Shown here piece by piece: positions 3-7,342 of a DNA stretch of 64,000 nucleotides (position 1 is the stretch's first letter; every line of letters begins with the position of its first letter). Location of the stretch: NCBI GenBank assembly GCA_016938175.1, contig JAFGVE010000024.1, forward strand, positions 1-64,000, written 5' to 3'. The notes below the pieces were generated by a model. The model made no database searches, was not told the origin of the DNA, and saw only the letters and a program-made list of their open reading frames with translations. This DNA comes from Campylobacterales bacterium (GTDB lineage: Bacteria > Campylobacterota > Campylobacteria > Campylobacterales > Sulfurimonadaceae). The position numbers were made by a program, and so were the translations under genes.

Positions 3-79
3 GGGTTCTTAGCTCAGTTGGTTAGAGCTCTCGGCTCATAACCGAGCGGTCGAGTGTTCGAGTCACTCAGAACCCACCA
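3..79 (+). tRNA. tRNA with CAT anticodon (Met or Ile2)
   Basis: Cloverleaf by eye: acceptor GGGTTCT/AGAACCC, D-stem GCTC/GAGC, anticodon stem CTCGG/CCGAG with loop CTCATAA, T-arm GAGTG-TTCGAGT-CACTC, encoded CCA. Confidence 0.93.
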
Positions 80-84
80 CTTAC
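15..84 (+). repeat. left attachment repeat within the intact tRNA gene
   Basis: cagttggttagagctctcggctcataaccgagcggtcgagtgttcgagtcactcagaacccaccacttac, identical to 7273-7342. Confidence 0.93.
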
Positions 85-170
85 AAATCCCCTAAAGCCC
101 CCATAAACAAGTACTTTTAAAGCTGTTAATTGAGTTACTTATTATAGCTAAATATGTACTAATATCTCCT

Positions 171-202
171 AAAAGTAACCAAAAGTTACCTAAAAAGTTA
201 CC
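171..202. repeat. candidate integrase arm-type sites, left arm
   Basis: Three adjacent copies: AAAAGTAACC, AAAAGTTACC, TAAAAAGTTACC. Confidence 0.5.
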
Positions 203-443
203 ATTTATCTTATAATCTAAAGTAACTCATAGAGCCCCTACAAGCTCTTTTATATGTTAGGTAAGGTATTTGTACCTATAAAGAGATATAAGGGCTTCTC
301 CTAACTCCTAGAGGTGTTTAAAGTCTATGTATGAGCTCTAATTGATAAGTGTTATCAATAAGGAGTGCTATGGGGGTATTTCAATCAATCCCATATAAGA
401 GAGAGCTCTGAGATATTTTTAATATTTTTCAGTTAGGTAGTTG

Positions 444-1145
444 TCAGTTAGGTATAACTGAGGAATTAGAGTTTAACTCATCTGCAATCATCATAAGTTC
501 TTTCATAAAGTTCTTTAATGCAACATTACCTATCACTTCTTTTATCTGTAGCCCTTGACCTGAGCTTGATACATAAGGGAGTAATGCCTTTGCTAGATTA
601 AATCTGAGTTGCCCTCCTGCTTCTATAGCTCCATCAGTATAGAGTTTAAATACATAACCAAGTCTGATAGCAATATGATGAGAGTTGATTGTCTTGCTGT
701 AGTGGTCTTTTATGTATCTGCTAATCTTCTCTTTGCTGGAACATAGAGTTTCTTTTCTTGACCCCTTGAGTATCTCAATAGTAAATGCATAAGGGTTAGT
801 AAATAATTTATTAATTTTAGAGGCTAGTAATTCTACTGTATCTGAAGTAAAACCACTAGAGTATATTTTCCTTGCTGGTTTAGATACATCATTTCTGAAG
901 TTAAATGTAGTAGGGGAGTAAGTTCCATATTTATTTCTATCTTTCATATGCTCATAACATACACCTCCAAGTCTATGCCTATTATTAGTACAGCCATTTA
1001 CAGTACAAAGAAGTTTCATATTATTATGTATTCTTGGTAATGTAGTTTTTTGATTGTGTAGAATATGTGAGGGTTTAGTATCTTGATTATAATGTAATGG
1101 CTTCTTTGTAGGTTGTGGTATGAATTCTGTAAGTTTAAAATACAT
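444..1145 (-). CDS. hypothetical protein with Cys/His putative zinc-binding motif
   Basis: ORF with AGGAG upstream of the start; internal motif CTVNGCTNNRHRLGGVCYEH (C-x4-C-x10-C-x2-H). Confidence 0.65.
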   Translation of the reverse strand: MYFKLTEFIPQPTKKPLHYNQDTKPSHILHNQKTTLPRIHNNMKLLCTVNGCTNNRHRLGGVCYEHMKDRNKYGTYSPTTFNFRNDVSKPARKIYSSGFTSDTVELLASKINKLFTNPYAFTIEILKGSRKETLCSSKEKISRYIKDHYSKTINSHHIAIRLGYVFKLYTDGAIEAGGQLRFNLAKALLPYVSSSGQGLQIKEVIGNVALKNFMKELMMIADELNSNSSVIPN

Positions 1146-1206
1146 AATATTTATCTCCTTTCTTTGTATGATATAATTGATTGAATTGAATTTATAAGGT
1201 GTAAGT

Positions 1207-1524
1207 ATGTTAAAAATTATTATATGGATAATGTTGGTAGCTAGTGTAAGTTTCGCAAATAATGTAGAAGTTAAAGGCTGTCTCTTGAAAGTTGTAAATC
1301 AAGAGGGCTCATTTGCTAACTTAGATATGATTGATTTAAGAAAAGTTTCTAGAATATCTGTTGAGCAAAATAAAGATGATTTTACAATAGAGCTATATGT
1401 TTCAAACTCACTAGAAAGAATTTTTACTTATGAGGGGAGTACAGATAGTAAAAGTAAATACTATAAAAATACTGCAAATCTGAGTAAGATTATTGAAGCT
1501 ACTCAAACTTGTATGATGAAGTAA
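1207..1524 (+). CDS. small putative secreted protein
   Basis: N-terminal signal-peptide-like MLKIIIWIMLVASVSFANN; 105 aa. Confidence 0.6.
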   Translation: MLKIIIWIMLVASVSFANNVEVKGCLLKVVNQEGSFANLDMIDLRKVSRISVEQNKDDFTIELYVSNSLERIFTYEGSTDSKSKYYKNTANLSKIIEATQTCMMK

Positions 1525-1857
1525 ATAAAAATATATAGTAGTAATACAAAAGTGTGGTTGATTTTCCATAATCAGAACTTCATCTTTATATGGGTTTTCA
1601 ACTGCACTTTTTAGATACAGATATAGTAGTACAATAATATTATTAAACCCTATATGTTAGATACAATCAAGAGCCAAAAGGGGGCGAAGAATGAGCCCCT
1701 ATCAAGTCAAACTTTAGAGTGTAATACATATATATTTTATATCTTTTGTATCTAAATTATAGTTAATGTATTAAAGAAGTATTATAAGTGTATTATAATA
1801 GTATTAGAGCAAAATCCCTATCCTCTGTAATGCCATTGTTTAGGTACTTTAAGAGGG

Positions 1858-2007
1858 GTTCATTTTTACTTCGTTAACTCATTTTTACACTTGGTTAACT
1901 CATTTTTACATTTAGTAGTATTGTTGGTTAACTCATTTTTACATTTAGTTAATGACAATATATACTTGGTTAACTCATTTTTACATTTAGTTAATGAGAA
2001 TATATAC
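1858..2007. repeat. iteron-like array (candidate replication origin)
   Basis: Core CATTTTTAC starting at 1861, 1880, 1901, 1934, 1976; four copies share GTTAACTCATTTTTACA; last two are an exact 42-bp tandem (1924-1965, 1966-2007) with one mismatch. Confidence 0.75.
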
Positions 2008-2237
2008 AGCTATACATATATACTATGAAATATTTTGGCCAATCTCTTGTATCCACCTAAACAAGGGGCTTGTAGAGGATTTTAATTTTAGAAAGGAAAC
2101 TTACATTTTAAGAAAAGAAACTTTTGCCCCTCAGTAGTGCCTCAATATTCCGCCCCCCCATTAGAGTTTTCTTGTACTCCCACCTTGAGGGCTGAATAAT
2201 ATTACATAGGAATTTCTGTACCAACCCCATAGGGTGC

Positions 2238-3371
2238 CTAAAAGTCTATTGTAGCCTTCAAGTAAGGGTTTTCTATAATATTATATTTACTTTTATCTAC
2301 ATCACTTGGCAACTCCATAACTTCATTATCTGTAATAATTGCATAGTAACGACCATTAAGACCTAAGTAAGCATCAAGTTTATTTTCAAGTTCTGCCTCA
2401 TCTCTTGTACTCTCCATCAGGGGCAACTCTTCCATACCATCTATTATGTGAGCTTCTTCTTTTGTTACTTCTGGTACAAACTCCTCAGCCTTAGTAGTAG
2501 ATACCTCCTCATCAAACCACTCATCTTTAATATCCACATCAAAGATATCAACAGTATTATCCACCACTTTAGTCTTGCTTCTATTAGTACGAACATAAGC
2601 ATTTGCACTTCTAATACATTTATAATCAGTACCAATAACATCATTTATCTCTTTAAATGCTTTGCTTAATGTAGCACTTCTACTTTTGTTTGATTTTATT
2701 CTCTCCTCAAGATTGAGAAACTGTATTGCATCTTTGATTGATACATTTAGTTTCATTCCCAAATGATTATCTTGAGTTTTACCACCTTGCCCAATTACTT
2801 GTAAGTATCTATAAAGCTCTTTAGTATATATACTTTTAAAGGTTGGTAGATGCTCAATAGAAATGTACCTAGTTCCTCTCCCTTGCATCTGCTCAACAAA
2901 GCTTTTACTAATTCTATATTTAAACTTATCAGTCTGCTCATCAAACCTCAACCCATCACTAAATATTCTAAAATACCAATCTTCTACAGATGGCTTTGAT
3001 ACTTGAATACGAGTAAACTCTAGGCTCACTAATTGTTCTTTTAATTTGCTTCTATTATATCTATTATCAGCTTCTTTGATTAACCCTAAAAGTTTTGATA
3101 GACTTATTTCCACTTCTCCATCAAACCCCTCATAAGTAGTAAACTGTTTCCATTCAGATACTAAATAATCAATAATAATTCCATCAGATACATCAAGAGG
3201 TCTAACACCTGCAATCAAAAGCATTTCTCCTAAGTCATTTATTCTTATTGCCTCATACATAGCTGAACCATTATCATAAGTATTTAATTCATAAGAGCCA
3301 AGATACCAACTATAAACCATACTTGCTTCTCTAACAATAGGTGCTGTTCTGTTTAATTTAATTTCACTCAT
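2238..3371 (-). CDS. plasmid-type replication initiation protein (Rep_3-like)
   Basis: 377 aa; duplicated winged-helix-like layout with FKSIYTKELYRYLQVIGQ segment typical of plasmid initiators; neighbouring iterons. Confidence 0.65.
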   Translation of the reverse strand: MSEIKLNRTAPIVREASMVYSWYLGSYELNTYDNGSAMYEAIRINDLGEMLLIAGVRPLDVSDGIIIDYLVSEWKQFTTYEGFDGEVEISLSKLLGLIKEADNRYNRSKLKEQLVSLEFTRIQVSKPSVEDWYFRIFSDGLRFDEQTDKFKYRISKSFVEQMQGRGTRYISIEHLPTFKSIYTKELYRYLQVIGQGGKTQDNHLGMKLNVSIKDAIQFLNLEERIKSNKSRSATLSKAFKEINDVIGTDYKCIRSANAYVRTNRSKTKVVDNTVDIFDVDIKDEWFDEEVSTTKAEEFVPEVTKEEAHIIDGMEELPLMESTRDEAELENKLDAYLGLNGRYYAIITDNEVMELPSDVDKSKYNIIENPYLKATIDF

Positions 3372-3375
3372 ACCT

Positions 3376-3573
3376 CTATTCTCCCTCTGTTACAAAACTC
3401 ACATACCCAAACTCTGGAGCCTCTATTTTTTGTACTGATTTTTTCTCTGCATCTATAGACTTGTAACCCTCAATAATAAGAAACTCTACAAGCTCTTTTC
3501 TATTACACTTCATATAATCACACATACTATTCAATTTATGTTGGTATTTCTCCTCAATGTTTAACCTTAACAT
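3376..3573 (-). CDS. small hypothetical protein, possible ribbon-helix-helix
   Basis: 65 aa, 4 nt upstream of rep; SD AAGGAG-like (gacaaggagaaagtaaaATG). Confidence 0.55.
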   Translation of the reverse strand: MLRLNIEEKYQHKLNSMCDYMKCNRKELVEFLIIEGYKSIDAEKKSVQKIEAPEFGYVSFVTEGE

Positions 3574-3600
3574 TTTACTTTCTCCTTGTCCTTTTAGATT

Positions 3601-3673
3601 GTAGCTTCAAAGAACACTATAGACCAATCAAGGTGGACAAATACCTATAATCTATAATGCTCTTTGAAACTAC
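3601..3673 (-). ncRNA. candidate structured RNA in leader of rep operon
   Basis: 23-bp stem (3601-3623 with 3651-3673), 27-nt loop; the three non-Watson-Crick positions are all G.U on the minus-strand RNA. Confidence 0.55.
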
Positions 3674-3684
3674 ATTCTCTTTAA

Positions 3685-3698
3685 TCCCCAAGAGGGGA
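3685..3698 (-). other. short GC-rich hairpin preceding the long stem
   Basis: Minus strand TCCCC-TCTT-GGGGA. Confidence 0.4.
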
Positions 3699-3701
3699 CA
3701 C

Positions 3702-3848
3702 CTATTTTTTATCTGCCCTATAAGATTTAATAGCTAAGAATACAGTCATATTATCAGTACCATACCTCTCTGCAATTCTAGTAATAGACCATCTCTTTTT
3801 ATAGAGTAGATGCCACACTATCTTAGTAGCTAAATTATTCTCCAGCAT
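3702..3848 (-). CDS. 48-aa helix-turn-helix-like protein (absent from the ORF track)
   Basis: Translation MLENNLATKIVWHLLYKKRWSITRIAERYGTDNMTVFLAIKSYRADKK*; ATG overlaps the 3' end of the upstream ORF. Confidence 0.55.
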   Translation of the reverse strand: MLENNLATKIVWHLLYKKRWSITRIAERYGTDNMTVFLAIKSYRADKK

Positions 3849-4107
3849 CTCTGTAATGTGGGCTCATACTTTTTTTAGTAGCATCTAATATCAGAGAGTC
3901 AAGTAACTTTTTTACTCCCCCATCTGCTCCATCTTGTATTACTACTTCATCAAGTTTTAATTTAAGAAGTGATGCACTTGCAGAGAGTACACCTGAACTA
4001 ATTTCATACCCTTGACTCTCTGCTTCTGCTAAAGTATTGTTAGCAACTTTAAGAGCATTGAGGTAGAGCAGTTCCTTTTGCTTCTGTATTTCTTCACTCA
4101 TAGACAT
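3835..4107 (-). CDS. hypothetical protein, 90 aa
   Basis: Shares TAATG stop/start overlap with the upstream gene. Confidence 0.6.
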   Translation of the reverse strand: MSMSEEIQKQKELLYLNALKVANNTLAEAESQGYEISSGVLSASASLLKLKLDEVVIQDGADGGVKKLLDSLILDATKKSMSPHYRDAGE

Positions 4108-4304
4108 TACCTTTCTCTCCTTATCTTAGAGAGCCAACCCTTAGCTCCCTTATGTTTCTTTCTCTGAGCTTCCTTATGTGCCATACTAATATTAAATAAC
4201 TCATATTCTTTTTCTTTTTGAGTCATCTTCAAGTAATTAGTTTCATCAGTACTGCTCATAACTTCCCCTCCATTTATCCAAGTACAAGTCACATCTCTGC
4301 TCAT
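4107..4304 (-). CDS. hypothetical protein, 65 aa
   Basis: ATGA overlap with upstream gene, TAATG with downstream gene. Confidence 0.55.
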   Translation of the reverse strand: MSRDVTCTWINGGEVMSSTDETNYLKMTQKEKEYELFNISMAHKEAQRKKHKGAKGWLSKIRRER

Positions 4305-4555
4305 AAGACTTCCTCTGTCACATAAACCAAAGATGAGTTAAAGTTTGCATTTTGGTTAGCACCTGAGTAGATGCATTTAACTCCTGCCAAGTCCTTATCA
4401 TCTTTTGAGCCAATTTTATAGAGATAGCTCCCCACTTTATAATAGGTAGGTTTTATCTTTTGGTTTGCCCCCTCTCTATACTCTATTTTTACAAGGGAAA
4501 CTCCATCAAGTAGCACACTAATATCCATATACTCTGTTCCAAATCTAGTAAGCAT
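4301..4555 (-). CDS. hypothetical protein, 84 aa
   Basis: Compact same-strand cassette, ATGA overlap. Confidence 0.55.
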   Translation of the reverse strand: MLTRFGTEYMDISVLLDGVSLVKIEYREGANQKIKPTYYKVGSYLYKIGSKDDKDLAGVKCIYSGANQNANFNSSLVYVTEEVL

Positions 4556-4557
4556 AA

Positions 4558-5172
4558 TTATTTCTCCACCAAACTATCATCATTTAAGATACCAAAAGAC
4601 TCTGCACTTCCACCTGATTGTAAGTGTTCCATAAAGGCAGCCTCACTCTCTTGTTGAGCTTGTTGGTACATAGCATCTGCATTATATTCTTGAATACTCC
4701 CATCTCTGTTTTGTACATATACCTTACCTGTTTGGGGATTTTCAAAGGTAATAATCTCATCTTCATTAAATGAGTTTCTCTTAGCATCAAACTCCTTTCT
4801 TGTCTGCTCTAGTATCTCTTCATCAGTTATCCCATTGTTATAAGTATGGGCTGTAGATACAACCATCTCAAAGGAAGATGAGAGGTTATTATCAAGAGCA
4901 ACAGCTTCTTTACCTGCATTGAGTAATACCTGTATTTGATTATCATTCAGAGCTTCAATCCCACCTATACTATTTATATCTTTTTGTAATTCCATAGCCT
5001 TAGTTTTTACTTCTTCATTGTAACTTCTAGATGCCTCAGATAACATCACTCCAAGCATACTGTTTAAGTTACCTCTGCTCTGTCTATAGTTGCTCTCATC
5101 TGCTTTGTTAGCTACACCATTTGCAATTCTAAGTGCTTGTACCATCTCCATTTCTTCTTGTGTTAATTTCAT
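4558..5172 (-). CDS. hypothetical protein, 204 aa
   Basis: Long ORF in same-strand cassette, AGGAG upstream of start. Confidence 0.65.
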   Translation of the reverse strand: MKLTQEEMEMVQALRIANGVANKADESNYRQSRGNLNSMLGVMLSEASRSYNEEVKTKAMELQKDINSIGGIEALNDNQIQVLLNAGKEAVALDNNLSSSFEMVVSTAHTYNNGITDEEILEQTRKEFDAKRNSFNEDEIITFENPQTGKVYVQNRDGSIQEYNADAMYQQAQQESEAAFMEHLQSGGSAESFGILNDDSLVEK

Positions 5173-5186
5173 TATTATTTCTCCTA

Positions 5187-5540
5187 TTAGATTGTTGTTA
5201 AGTTGTGTTCTATAACTCTGTCTTTTAAGTCTTTTTCAAAAGCTATATGTAAAAGCCTCTCCATATTCCTGCTGTACCAAGTCTTGTTTGGATTATCACT
5301 ACCATCTAAAGATAGTACATACTCCCCATTACTTGAAGTGTCTATTCTCCATCTTGCTGTGAGCTGATAGTCTTTAGCCAACTCATAGTACTCTTGAAGT
5401 AACTTTGTGGCTTCTCCTAACTCTGAGAGGTCTTTTATGAGCTGTTCTGATTTAGCTATTATTGAAGTAAATTCTCTGGACATAAATGTGCCATTGAGTA
5501 CCCAACAATTACTGCTGTCTTTGGTTGCAATATCAAGCAT
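5187..5540 (-). CDS. hypothetical protein, 117 aa
   Basis: ORF in same-strand cassette. Confidence 0.6.
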   Translation of the reverse strand: MLDIATKDSSNCWVLNGTFMSREFTSIIAKSEQLIKDLSELGEATKLLQEYYELAKDYQLTARWRIDTSSNGEYVLSLDGSDNPNKTWYSRNMERLLHIAFEKDLKDRVIEHNLTTI

Positions 5541-5541
5541 C

Positions 5542-5748
5542 TTAATAGTCTGCCTTTATGTGTGCAACTGAGTTAATAATATCCATCTGTCTTGCTTCAA
5601 ACTCTTTGTCTAGTAAATATGCAAATACTCTAGCCTTTGTGAATTTAGTGTGAGTAGTAGCTTCAAGAAATAGTATTAACATTTCTAATCTTTTCTTTTC
5701 AAAGTATGTCAGCCTTGTTCTAAGCATATAGTCCTTTGTAAGTGCCAT
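5542..5748 (-). CDS. small hypothetical protein, possible ribbon-helix-helix or excisionase-like
   Basis: 68 aa, first gene of the cassette; RTRLTYFEKKRLEMLILFLEA resembles small DNA-binding proteins. Confidence 0.5.
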   Translation of the reverse strand: MALTKDYMLRTRLTYFEKKRLEMLILFLEATTHTKFTKARVFAYLLDKEFEARQMDIINSVAHIKADY

Positions 5749-5949
5749 TGTTTGTGTTCTCCTTTTGTGTGTTAATGTAAAGATATTTATGTATCCTTTC
5801 TCTGTAATTGTCTATTTACAACATAGATTTTAAGAGCCCCATAAATAGGGAGTTTAGAGCCTTATAAGTGAGCATAAAAAGAGCTCCTAAAAAGTAACCT
5901 CCTCCTATAATAAGAGGGTATATTCTTAAAGTTACCCTAAATAAATAAA

Positions 5950-7149
5950 CTAATTTAATAGCTCCACTACCTCTTGTAACTGCTTTATAGAGTAGCCATT
6001 TGCATATCTGGATAGTGTCATTGATGAGTGAGTATGCCCCATAAGCTCAGATACAATAGAACTGCTTGCTCCTCTATGTATAAGTTCAGTAGCAAAAGTG
6101 TGCCTTAGAGAGTAAAGTGACTTAGTAGCTGTATTATCTAAAGTTTTATCAATATACTTTTTAGTGACTTTAGAGAGATATTGACTTGAGTATTTAGCAG
6201 TAAGTACAGGAAGATTATCAAGCCCATCTATAAGTGATGAGTGAACAGGTACAACTCTATAACTGCTGAGAGTTTTTAACTGTAGAGTAGGGCTAGTTAA
6301 ATCAAAACAAAGTACACCATCTATATTAGTAACTTCACATTTAAGTAACTCACTTGGTCTTAAACCACTATATGCAAGAGCTTTGATGAGGTATATATAT
6401 TCACAATCTGAGTATGTATTTAGTAGTAGAGATAACTCCTGAGAGCTTATAGGTGACTTCTGTTCTCTTGCTTTTTTAAGTGGTAGTAATTTGAGTGATG
6501 AAGTTATGTTTGATACAACCAAGCCCCTATTATGAGCATAGACAAAGAGTGCCTTTAGTTGCTTCAAGTATTCATTGACTGTTTTATTACTAATTCTTTC
6601 ATCATCTAATATTGTAGTACAAGATAATAGTTCATCAAGCCCCATCAATCTGTACTTCTGTATGTTTCTCTTAGGTAGTTTAATAAGTGAGCTTTTACAG
6701 TTATCTATATCCTTGTAAGTAATTTTAGATATTTCCCTATTTCCATTGACTATGTGGCTTATAGTATTGAGGATTGTACTATACTCTTGAAGCCTTTGTT
6801 GAGTTACATTTAGAGAAGATAAATATCCTTGTATTACTTCATCAAGTGTAAGAGGCTTAGTTACTTCTACTGCTGTTTTGTTGGTATGTAATATTTTAGT
6901 AGATACATAAGGAGTAACAATATCCATTACAGCTTGCTCTTTTACTTCATCAGTTAATGAGAGTTTCAGAGTATTAAGAGCTTTGTTTATATTGTTAGAG
7001 ATAACATCAGCTTTACTTTGAGCCTCTTGTATGTCTTTACTGAGGGCAACTTTAAGGATTGACTTGTTAATGTACTGCTGTAGGTTAGTAGGTATTTTTC
7101 TAATGTAAGTGTAAGTGCCACCCTTAGTGGTTTTAATGTATTTGTTCAT
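5950..7149 (-). CDS. tyrosine recombinase/integrase
   Basis: Catalytic motifs ALAYSGLRPSELL, YSLRHTFATELIHRG, LMGHTHSSMTLSRYAN. Confidence 0.93.
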   Translation of the reverse strand: MNKYIKTTKGGTYTYIRKIPTNLQQYINKSILKVALSKDIQEAQSKADVISNNINKALNTLKLSLTDEVKEQAVMDIVTPYVSTKILHTNKTAVEVTKPLTLDEVIQGYLSSLNVTQQRLQEYSTILNTISHIVNGNREISKITYKDIDNCKSSLIKLPKRNIQKYRLMGLDELLSCTTILDDERISNKTVNEYLKQLKALFVYAHNRGLVVSNITSSLKLLPLKKAREQKSPISSQELSLLLNTYSDCEYIYLIKALAYSGLRPSELLKCEVTNIDGVLCFDLTSPTLQLKTLSSYRVVPVHSSLIDGLDNLPVLTAKYSSQYLSKVTKKYIDKTLDNTATKSLYSLRHTFATELIHRGASSSIVSELMGHTHSSMTLSRYANGYSIKQLQEVVELLN

Positions 7150-7182
7150 CTGAGAACCTTTAAAAGTATTCTCAATAAACAG

Positions 7183-7207
7183 CTAAAAAGTTACCAAAAA
7201 AGTTACC
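7183..7207. repeat. candidate integrase arm-type sites, right arm
   Basis: Two adjacent copies: CTAAAAAGTTACC, AAAAAAGTTACC, between int and the right repeat. Confidence 0.5.
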
Positions 7208-7272
7208 TTTATGAATAATACATAAGAGATAATAACTAGTAAGTGCCTAGTTTAGGGCTTCATTAAGGGTTA

Positions 7273-7342
7273 CAGTTGGTTAGAGCTCTCGGCTCATAAC
7301 CGAGCGGTCGAGTGTTCGAGTCACTCAGAACCCACCACTTAC
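7273..7342 (+). repeat. right attachment repeat, displaced tRNA 3' fragment
   Basis: 70/70 identity with 15-84; lacks the 5' acceptor half so is not a functional tRNA. Confidence 0.93.

Follow-up and report, generated by a model that had tools for sequence, protein, structure and literature searches.

A long inverted repeat ahead of a Rep_3-like replication operon in a tRNA-Met-integrated element: a candidate cis control hairpin

The beginning of the window, as we term the whole 64-kb stretch of DNA analyzed here, is occupied by an integrated plasmid-like element of 7.26 kb (positions 15-7342) lodged in a tRNA-Met gene. Each end of the element bears one copy of a 70-nt att repeat, and the two copies, recovered by repeat search, lie 7258 bp apart on the plus strand: the first (15-84) sits inside what tRNA annotation identifies as an intact tRNA-Met, and the second (7273-7342), identical to it at 70 of 70 positions, represents the 3' part of tRNA-Met. 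The combination of these direct repeats, one of them within an intact tRNA, with a tyrosine integrase on the minus strand (5950-7149; PF00589, E 1.2e-10) identifies a tRNA-integrated mobile element. For most of its proteins no family assignment is convincing; one minus-strand ORF of 233 aa (444-1145) weakly matches phage endonuclease families (phrog_4645, E 0.0026). The repeat search also uncovered a set of iteron-like direct repeats, GGTTAACTCATTTTTACA, at 1863-2012, which form a candidate origin.

A series of small minus-strand genes runs from 5748 to 3702 with overlaps or gaps of at most 14 bases, and its last member encodes a 48-aa HTH protein (3702-3848, minus strand; PF13384, E 1.2e-4), whose predicted fold is a three-helix HTH (pLDDT 86.5) resembling the DNA-binding domains of DeoR and of sigma region 4, at E-values that are not significant. 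It is followed by a gap of 128 nt, the only long one in the minus-strand gene series spanning 5748-2238, and then by a gene for a 65-aa protein (3376-3573) and a rep gene (2238-3371), both on the minus strand. The 377-aa product of the latter is a Rep_3-like replication initiator with a marginal match to PF01051 (E 5.9e-4 and 20.7 bits by hmmscan, with a cut-off of 22.4; 23.5 bits, above the cut-off, in the genome search). Only 4 nt separate the stop of the 65-aa gene from the start of rep, and by this spacing the two constitute a candidate two-gene operon. The 65-aa protein gave no family match in profile searches and no significant structural match; its single-sequence AlphaFold2 model, of low confidence (pLDDT 72), starts with a strand-helix-helix arrangement, as ribbon-helix-helix (RHH) repressors do, making it a putative RHH-like protein and a candidate Cop repressor.

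The 128-nt gap holds a long inverted repeat, placed between the 48-aa HTH-like gene and the 65-aa/rep operon just as a preliminary description of this DNA had it, with 27 nt between it and the 65-aa gene's ATG downstream. Its left arm (3601-3623), delineated from the sequence, the fold and a repeat scan, is the 3' arm of a minus-strand hairpin, and its right arm (3651-3673), which read outward is identical to the left at 20 of 23 positions, is the 5' arm; the positions and letters of both agree with the earlier description. Pairing is Watson-Crick at 20 of the 23 arm positions, the remaining three being G.U wobbles in RNA of the minus strand and A.C mismatches in that of the plus strand, and it grows by one further outer pair (T3600-A3674) to give 24-bp arms. 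The intervening 27-nt loop (3624-3650) contains a nested 4-bp helix, AGGU/ACCU, which is present in the minimum-energy structure of the minus strand. As minus-strand RNA, 3601-3673 folds at -35.9 kcal/mol, against -11.9 +/- 3.1 for shuffled sequences (z -7.7), and as plus-strand RNA at -21.7 kcal/mol (z -5.7); the entire intergenic region folds at -51.4 kcal/mol on the minus strand (z -8.1). The z-scores of the gene strand are accordingly -7.7 and -8.1, versus -5.7 and -4.8 on the opposite strand. The 23-position stem, the division of its imperfect pairs between A.C and G.U by strand, and the nested helix in the loop, all claimed earlier, are thus borne out.

The repeat is also exceptional in its strength. 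We measured its rarity with an ungapped inverted-repeat scan, using as the null first-order Markov sequence with the dinucleotide content of the window. It scores 18, with every other repeat in the window below 13; 2.56 Mb of the null sequence produced a single match at 17 and none at 18, and the best score in 326 kb from the other contigs of the same genome is 15. It is therefore the sole repeat of such strength in about 390 kb of the host genome, and a sliding fold across the 7.4-kb element ranks it as the strongest structure, above the tRNA. The long inverted repeat at 3601-3673 is real, rare and well past chance.

The preliminary description had further taken the distribution of the wobbles to mean that the structure is strand-specific. 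This is arithmetically true, as the G.U pairs occur only on the minus strand, but it is weak as an argument: when one transition strikes a perfect palindrome, either strand is equally likely to receive the wobble while the other receives an A.C, and, given three transitions, the chance that all are wobbles on the gene strand is 1/8. The fact that every imperfection is a transition lends an RNA reading some weight, but the strand asymmetry alone is insufficient to establish an RNA.

Several specific identities were tried and set aside. An intrinsic terminator of the upstream minus-strand genes is contradicted by the minus strand past the stem, which reads AATCTAAAAGG and has no U-tract, and by a minus-strand terminator scan that came back empty. 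Direct occlusion of the ribosome-binding site (RBS) does not fit predicted folds in which the RBS is unpaired. A search of Rfam assigned no RNA family, the only hit being MIR7994, at E 0.18 and 25.6 bits versus the 100 needed for the gathering score.

We tentatively favor, at somewhat less than an even chance, the reading in which the repeat is a cis control element of the 65-aa/rep operon that works as an RNA hairpin, in a leader or between genes. Transcripts reading through from the preceding minus-strand genes, or mRNA begun at a promoter just upstream, would enter the repeat and fold into a hairpin of 23-26 bp, 27 nt ahead of the first start codon. Such a hairpin would be long enough for cutting by RNase III or for protection of a 5' end, and either would make the rep mRNA independent of the genes upstream and set its level. 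The earlier proposal of a leader, attenuator or copy-control element for rep survives in part: the position fits a cis element, whereas RBS occlusion and intrinsic termination of the upstream genes are disfavored because the RBS is free in the fold and no U-tract follows the stem. Of the possible modes, RNase III processing or 5'-end protection would best fit a stem of 23-26 bp. The observations that point to an RNA hairpin are the gene-strand fold z-scores, the occurrence of all wobbles on the gene strand, the rarity of the repeat, its placement and the unpaired RBS.

The arms could equally constitute a dyad acting at the level of DNA, with outward-facing -10 elements. Read outward, they are one 23-nt sequence, TCTATAATGCTCTTTGAAACTAC on the plus strand and TCTATAGTGTTCTTTGAAGCTAC on the minus strand, and their inner ends bear -10-like hexamers: an exact TATAAT on the plus strand (3653-3658) and TATAGT, a 5/6 match directed toward the rep operon, on the minus strand (3616-3621), both assigned by consensus match only. 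A second exact TATAAT lies at 3646-3651, making two occurrences where chance would put about 0.25 on each strand of a stretch this long; 5/6 matches, by contrast, are common (about two per strand). Beside the repeat, at 3685-3698, is the hairpin TCCCC-AAGA-GGGGA followed by CACCTATTTTTT, the only terminator-like site that a terminator scan found in 700 bp (shuffled sequences give 0.2 +/- 0.5). The preliminary description had this hairpin precede the long stem; the hairpin does exist, but by the side on which its T-run lies it is terminator-like on the plus strand only. Because the T-run is confined to the plus strand and no plus-strand gene ends there, the hint it gives is of a plus-strand RNA, not of a further component in a minus-strand leader.

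From these features a serious rival, if a somewhat unlikely one, can be assembled, because the arms share an outward TATAAT/TATAGT sequence and the site at 3685-3698 is terminator-like on the plus strand alone. The two outward copies of the 23-bp sequence TCTATARTGYTCTTTGAARCTAC would be back-to-back promoters or operators, with the minus copy driving 65-aa/rep and the plus copy driving an antisense RNA of about 45 nt that ends at 3685-3698; the RHH-like or the HTH protein, the two small putative DNA-binding proteins encoded alongside, could bind both copies. Against it, there are no -35-like hexamers at the proper spacing from the -10 candidates and the promoter scan of the region was blank, the identity over 23 bp exceeds that of most operators, and the putative terminator is short, at 5 bp, with a T-run that is spaced. 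Were the outward -10 reading true, transcription of rep would begin within the left arm, leaving the hairpin out of its mRNA.

It is unlikely, though less so than the readings that follow, that the repeat is a functionless palindrome, whether inserted as a 73-bp MITE-like sequence or produced as a hairpin by template switching in replication. Direct repeats of 3 bp (ATT...ATT) border it, and removal of the 73 bp and one ATT would leave a gap of 52 nt; a flank match of 3 bp is weak. No homologue bearing the hairpin is known: a homologous element was not found in 136 genomes of the genus, 398 of the phylum, plasmids or phages. A MITE recognizable by copy number was rejected, as searches with the arm sequences, allowing up to 2 mismatches in 23, returned from the 136 genus genomes only the repeat's own single copy and nothing in the 135 congeners; the DNA of the region has no match in plasmids, and in phages only 30-nt matches at E 0.5, which we take as chance. 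The fact that all three imperfections preserve pairing on one strand also speaks against a neutral palindrome.

Long hairpins are typical of oriT, single-strand initiation and packaging sites, and the element encodes no recognized relaxase among its own proteins, but we regard a single-stranded DNA signal of this kind (an oriT mimic, an initiation site or a packaging signal) as very improbable, given that the host genome has no PF03432 relaxase (the only relaxase family searched), the candidate iterons sit elsewhere (1863-2012), and no structural phage gene families were recognized among the scanned proteins. The packaging signal suggested earlier found no support, and neither did the excision signal, the att sites being the 70-nt tRNA repeats 7.26 kb apart.

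Relatives of the element are scarce. A single distant match to Rep (23% identity) turned up in the genus, and none besides it in 398 phylum genomes, plasmids or phages; a 204-aa protein of the element has no match in 151 family genomes or in phages. At the other Rep_3 loci of the genus, the strong repeats come after rep or occupy unrelated positions, with no obvious counterpart in a leader position. We also compared elements whose integrases are 27-44% identical to that of the window. One of these, from a congener (L048; integrase 33% identical), has a repeat with 27-bp arms at 3654-3754, between an RHH-like ORF, assigned by eye and with no family match, and the beginning of the gene that follows, just past which the contig ends. 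This repeat does not favor the RNA reading, because its sequence is unrelated to that of the window repeat and, on the gene strand, A.C accounts for two of its three imperfect pairs. The remaining integrase-related elements examined displayed no obvious hairpin counterpart and no recurrent pattern.

The same comparison yielded some observations on these elements themselves. Beside one integrase-related element, a GC-rich inverted repeat with 20-bp arms lies past the 3' end of a 406-aa ORF (L097, 15020-15117). At another locus, two tRNA-Ser(tga) genes (L045, 1180-1270 and 5683-5771) surround a stretch of about 4.4 kb that opens with a 40%-identical integrase and is likely another small tRNA-integrated element. 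At a third (L047, 9061-13197), a duplicated tRNA-Met/tRNA-Asn pair, its copies about 3.96 kb apart, encloses a broken integrase, 44% related to that of the window, and from its sequence this appears to be a decayed element at the same tRNA type.

If the repeat has a function, it would illustrate the way in which a small integrated plasmid-like element keeps its replication genes under control while chromosomal, and it offers a compact case for weighing RNA against DNA control of rep. There is a slim chance that the two kinds of control are combined, with one palindrome serving both as a divergent promoter pair and as the leader hairpin of a cop-rep operon, such that a repressor and an antisense RNA would jointly control the iteron-bearing Rep_3-type initiator of an integrative element. 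We know of no such hybrid copy-control system.

Among known systems, the nearest parallel to such joint control is in pMV158, where a small repressor, CopG, and a small one-hairpin antisense RNA, RNAII, jointly act on rep (PMC4485353). The window resembles its cop-rep arrangement in having a small repressor-like gene immediately upstream of the initiator, and its candidate antisense RNA resembles RNAII in combining a 5' tail with a single short hairpin and an end rich in U (PMC4485353). What is observed of a pMV158-type system is the 4-nt gap to rep, the strand-helix-helix prediction at pLDDT 72 and, on the plus strand, a TATAAT and a terminator-like hairpin only. The two differ in their initiators, Rep_3-like in the window and of the rolling-circle type in pMV158, and in the place of the antisense RNA, for which the candidate in the window is upstream of the repressor-like gene and not in the interval separating repressor and rep. 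To our knowledge, pMV158 has no leader stem comparable to the one of 23 bp seen here, and we offer the resemblance as a lead only. The weak PF01051 match and the iteron-like direct repeats recall the iteron-regulated Rep_3 plasmids (PF01051), but the arms of the inverted repeat are unlike the iteron (best local score 4), and it is therefore no ordinary rep operator derived from the iteron. RNase III processing hairpins, for their part, occur between the genes of polycistronic mRNAs, as at the early R sites of phage T7, and the window repeat, as known from its sequence, is like them in its long near-perfect stem, its intergenic position and the same-strand genes around it. The hairpin is probably another instance of these known kinds, in an ordinary kind of mobile element.
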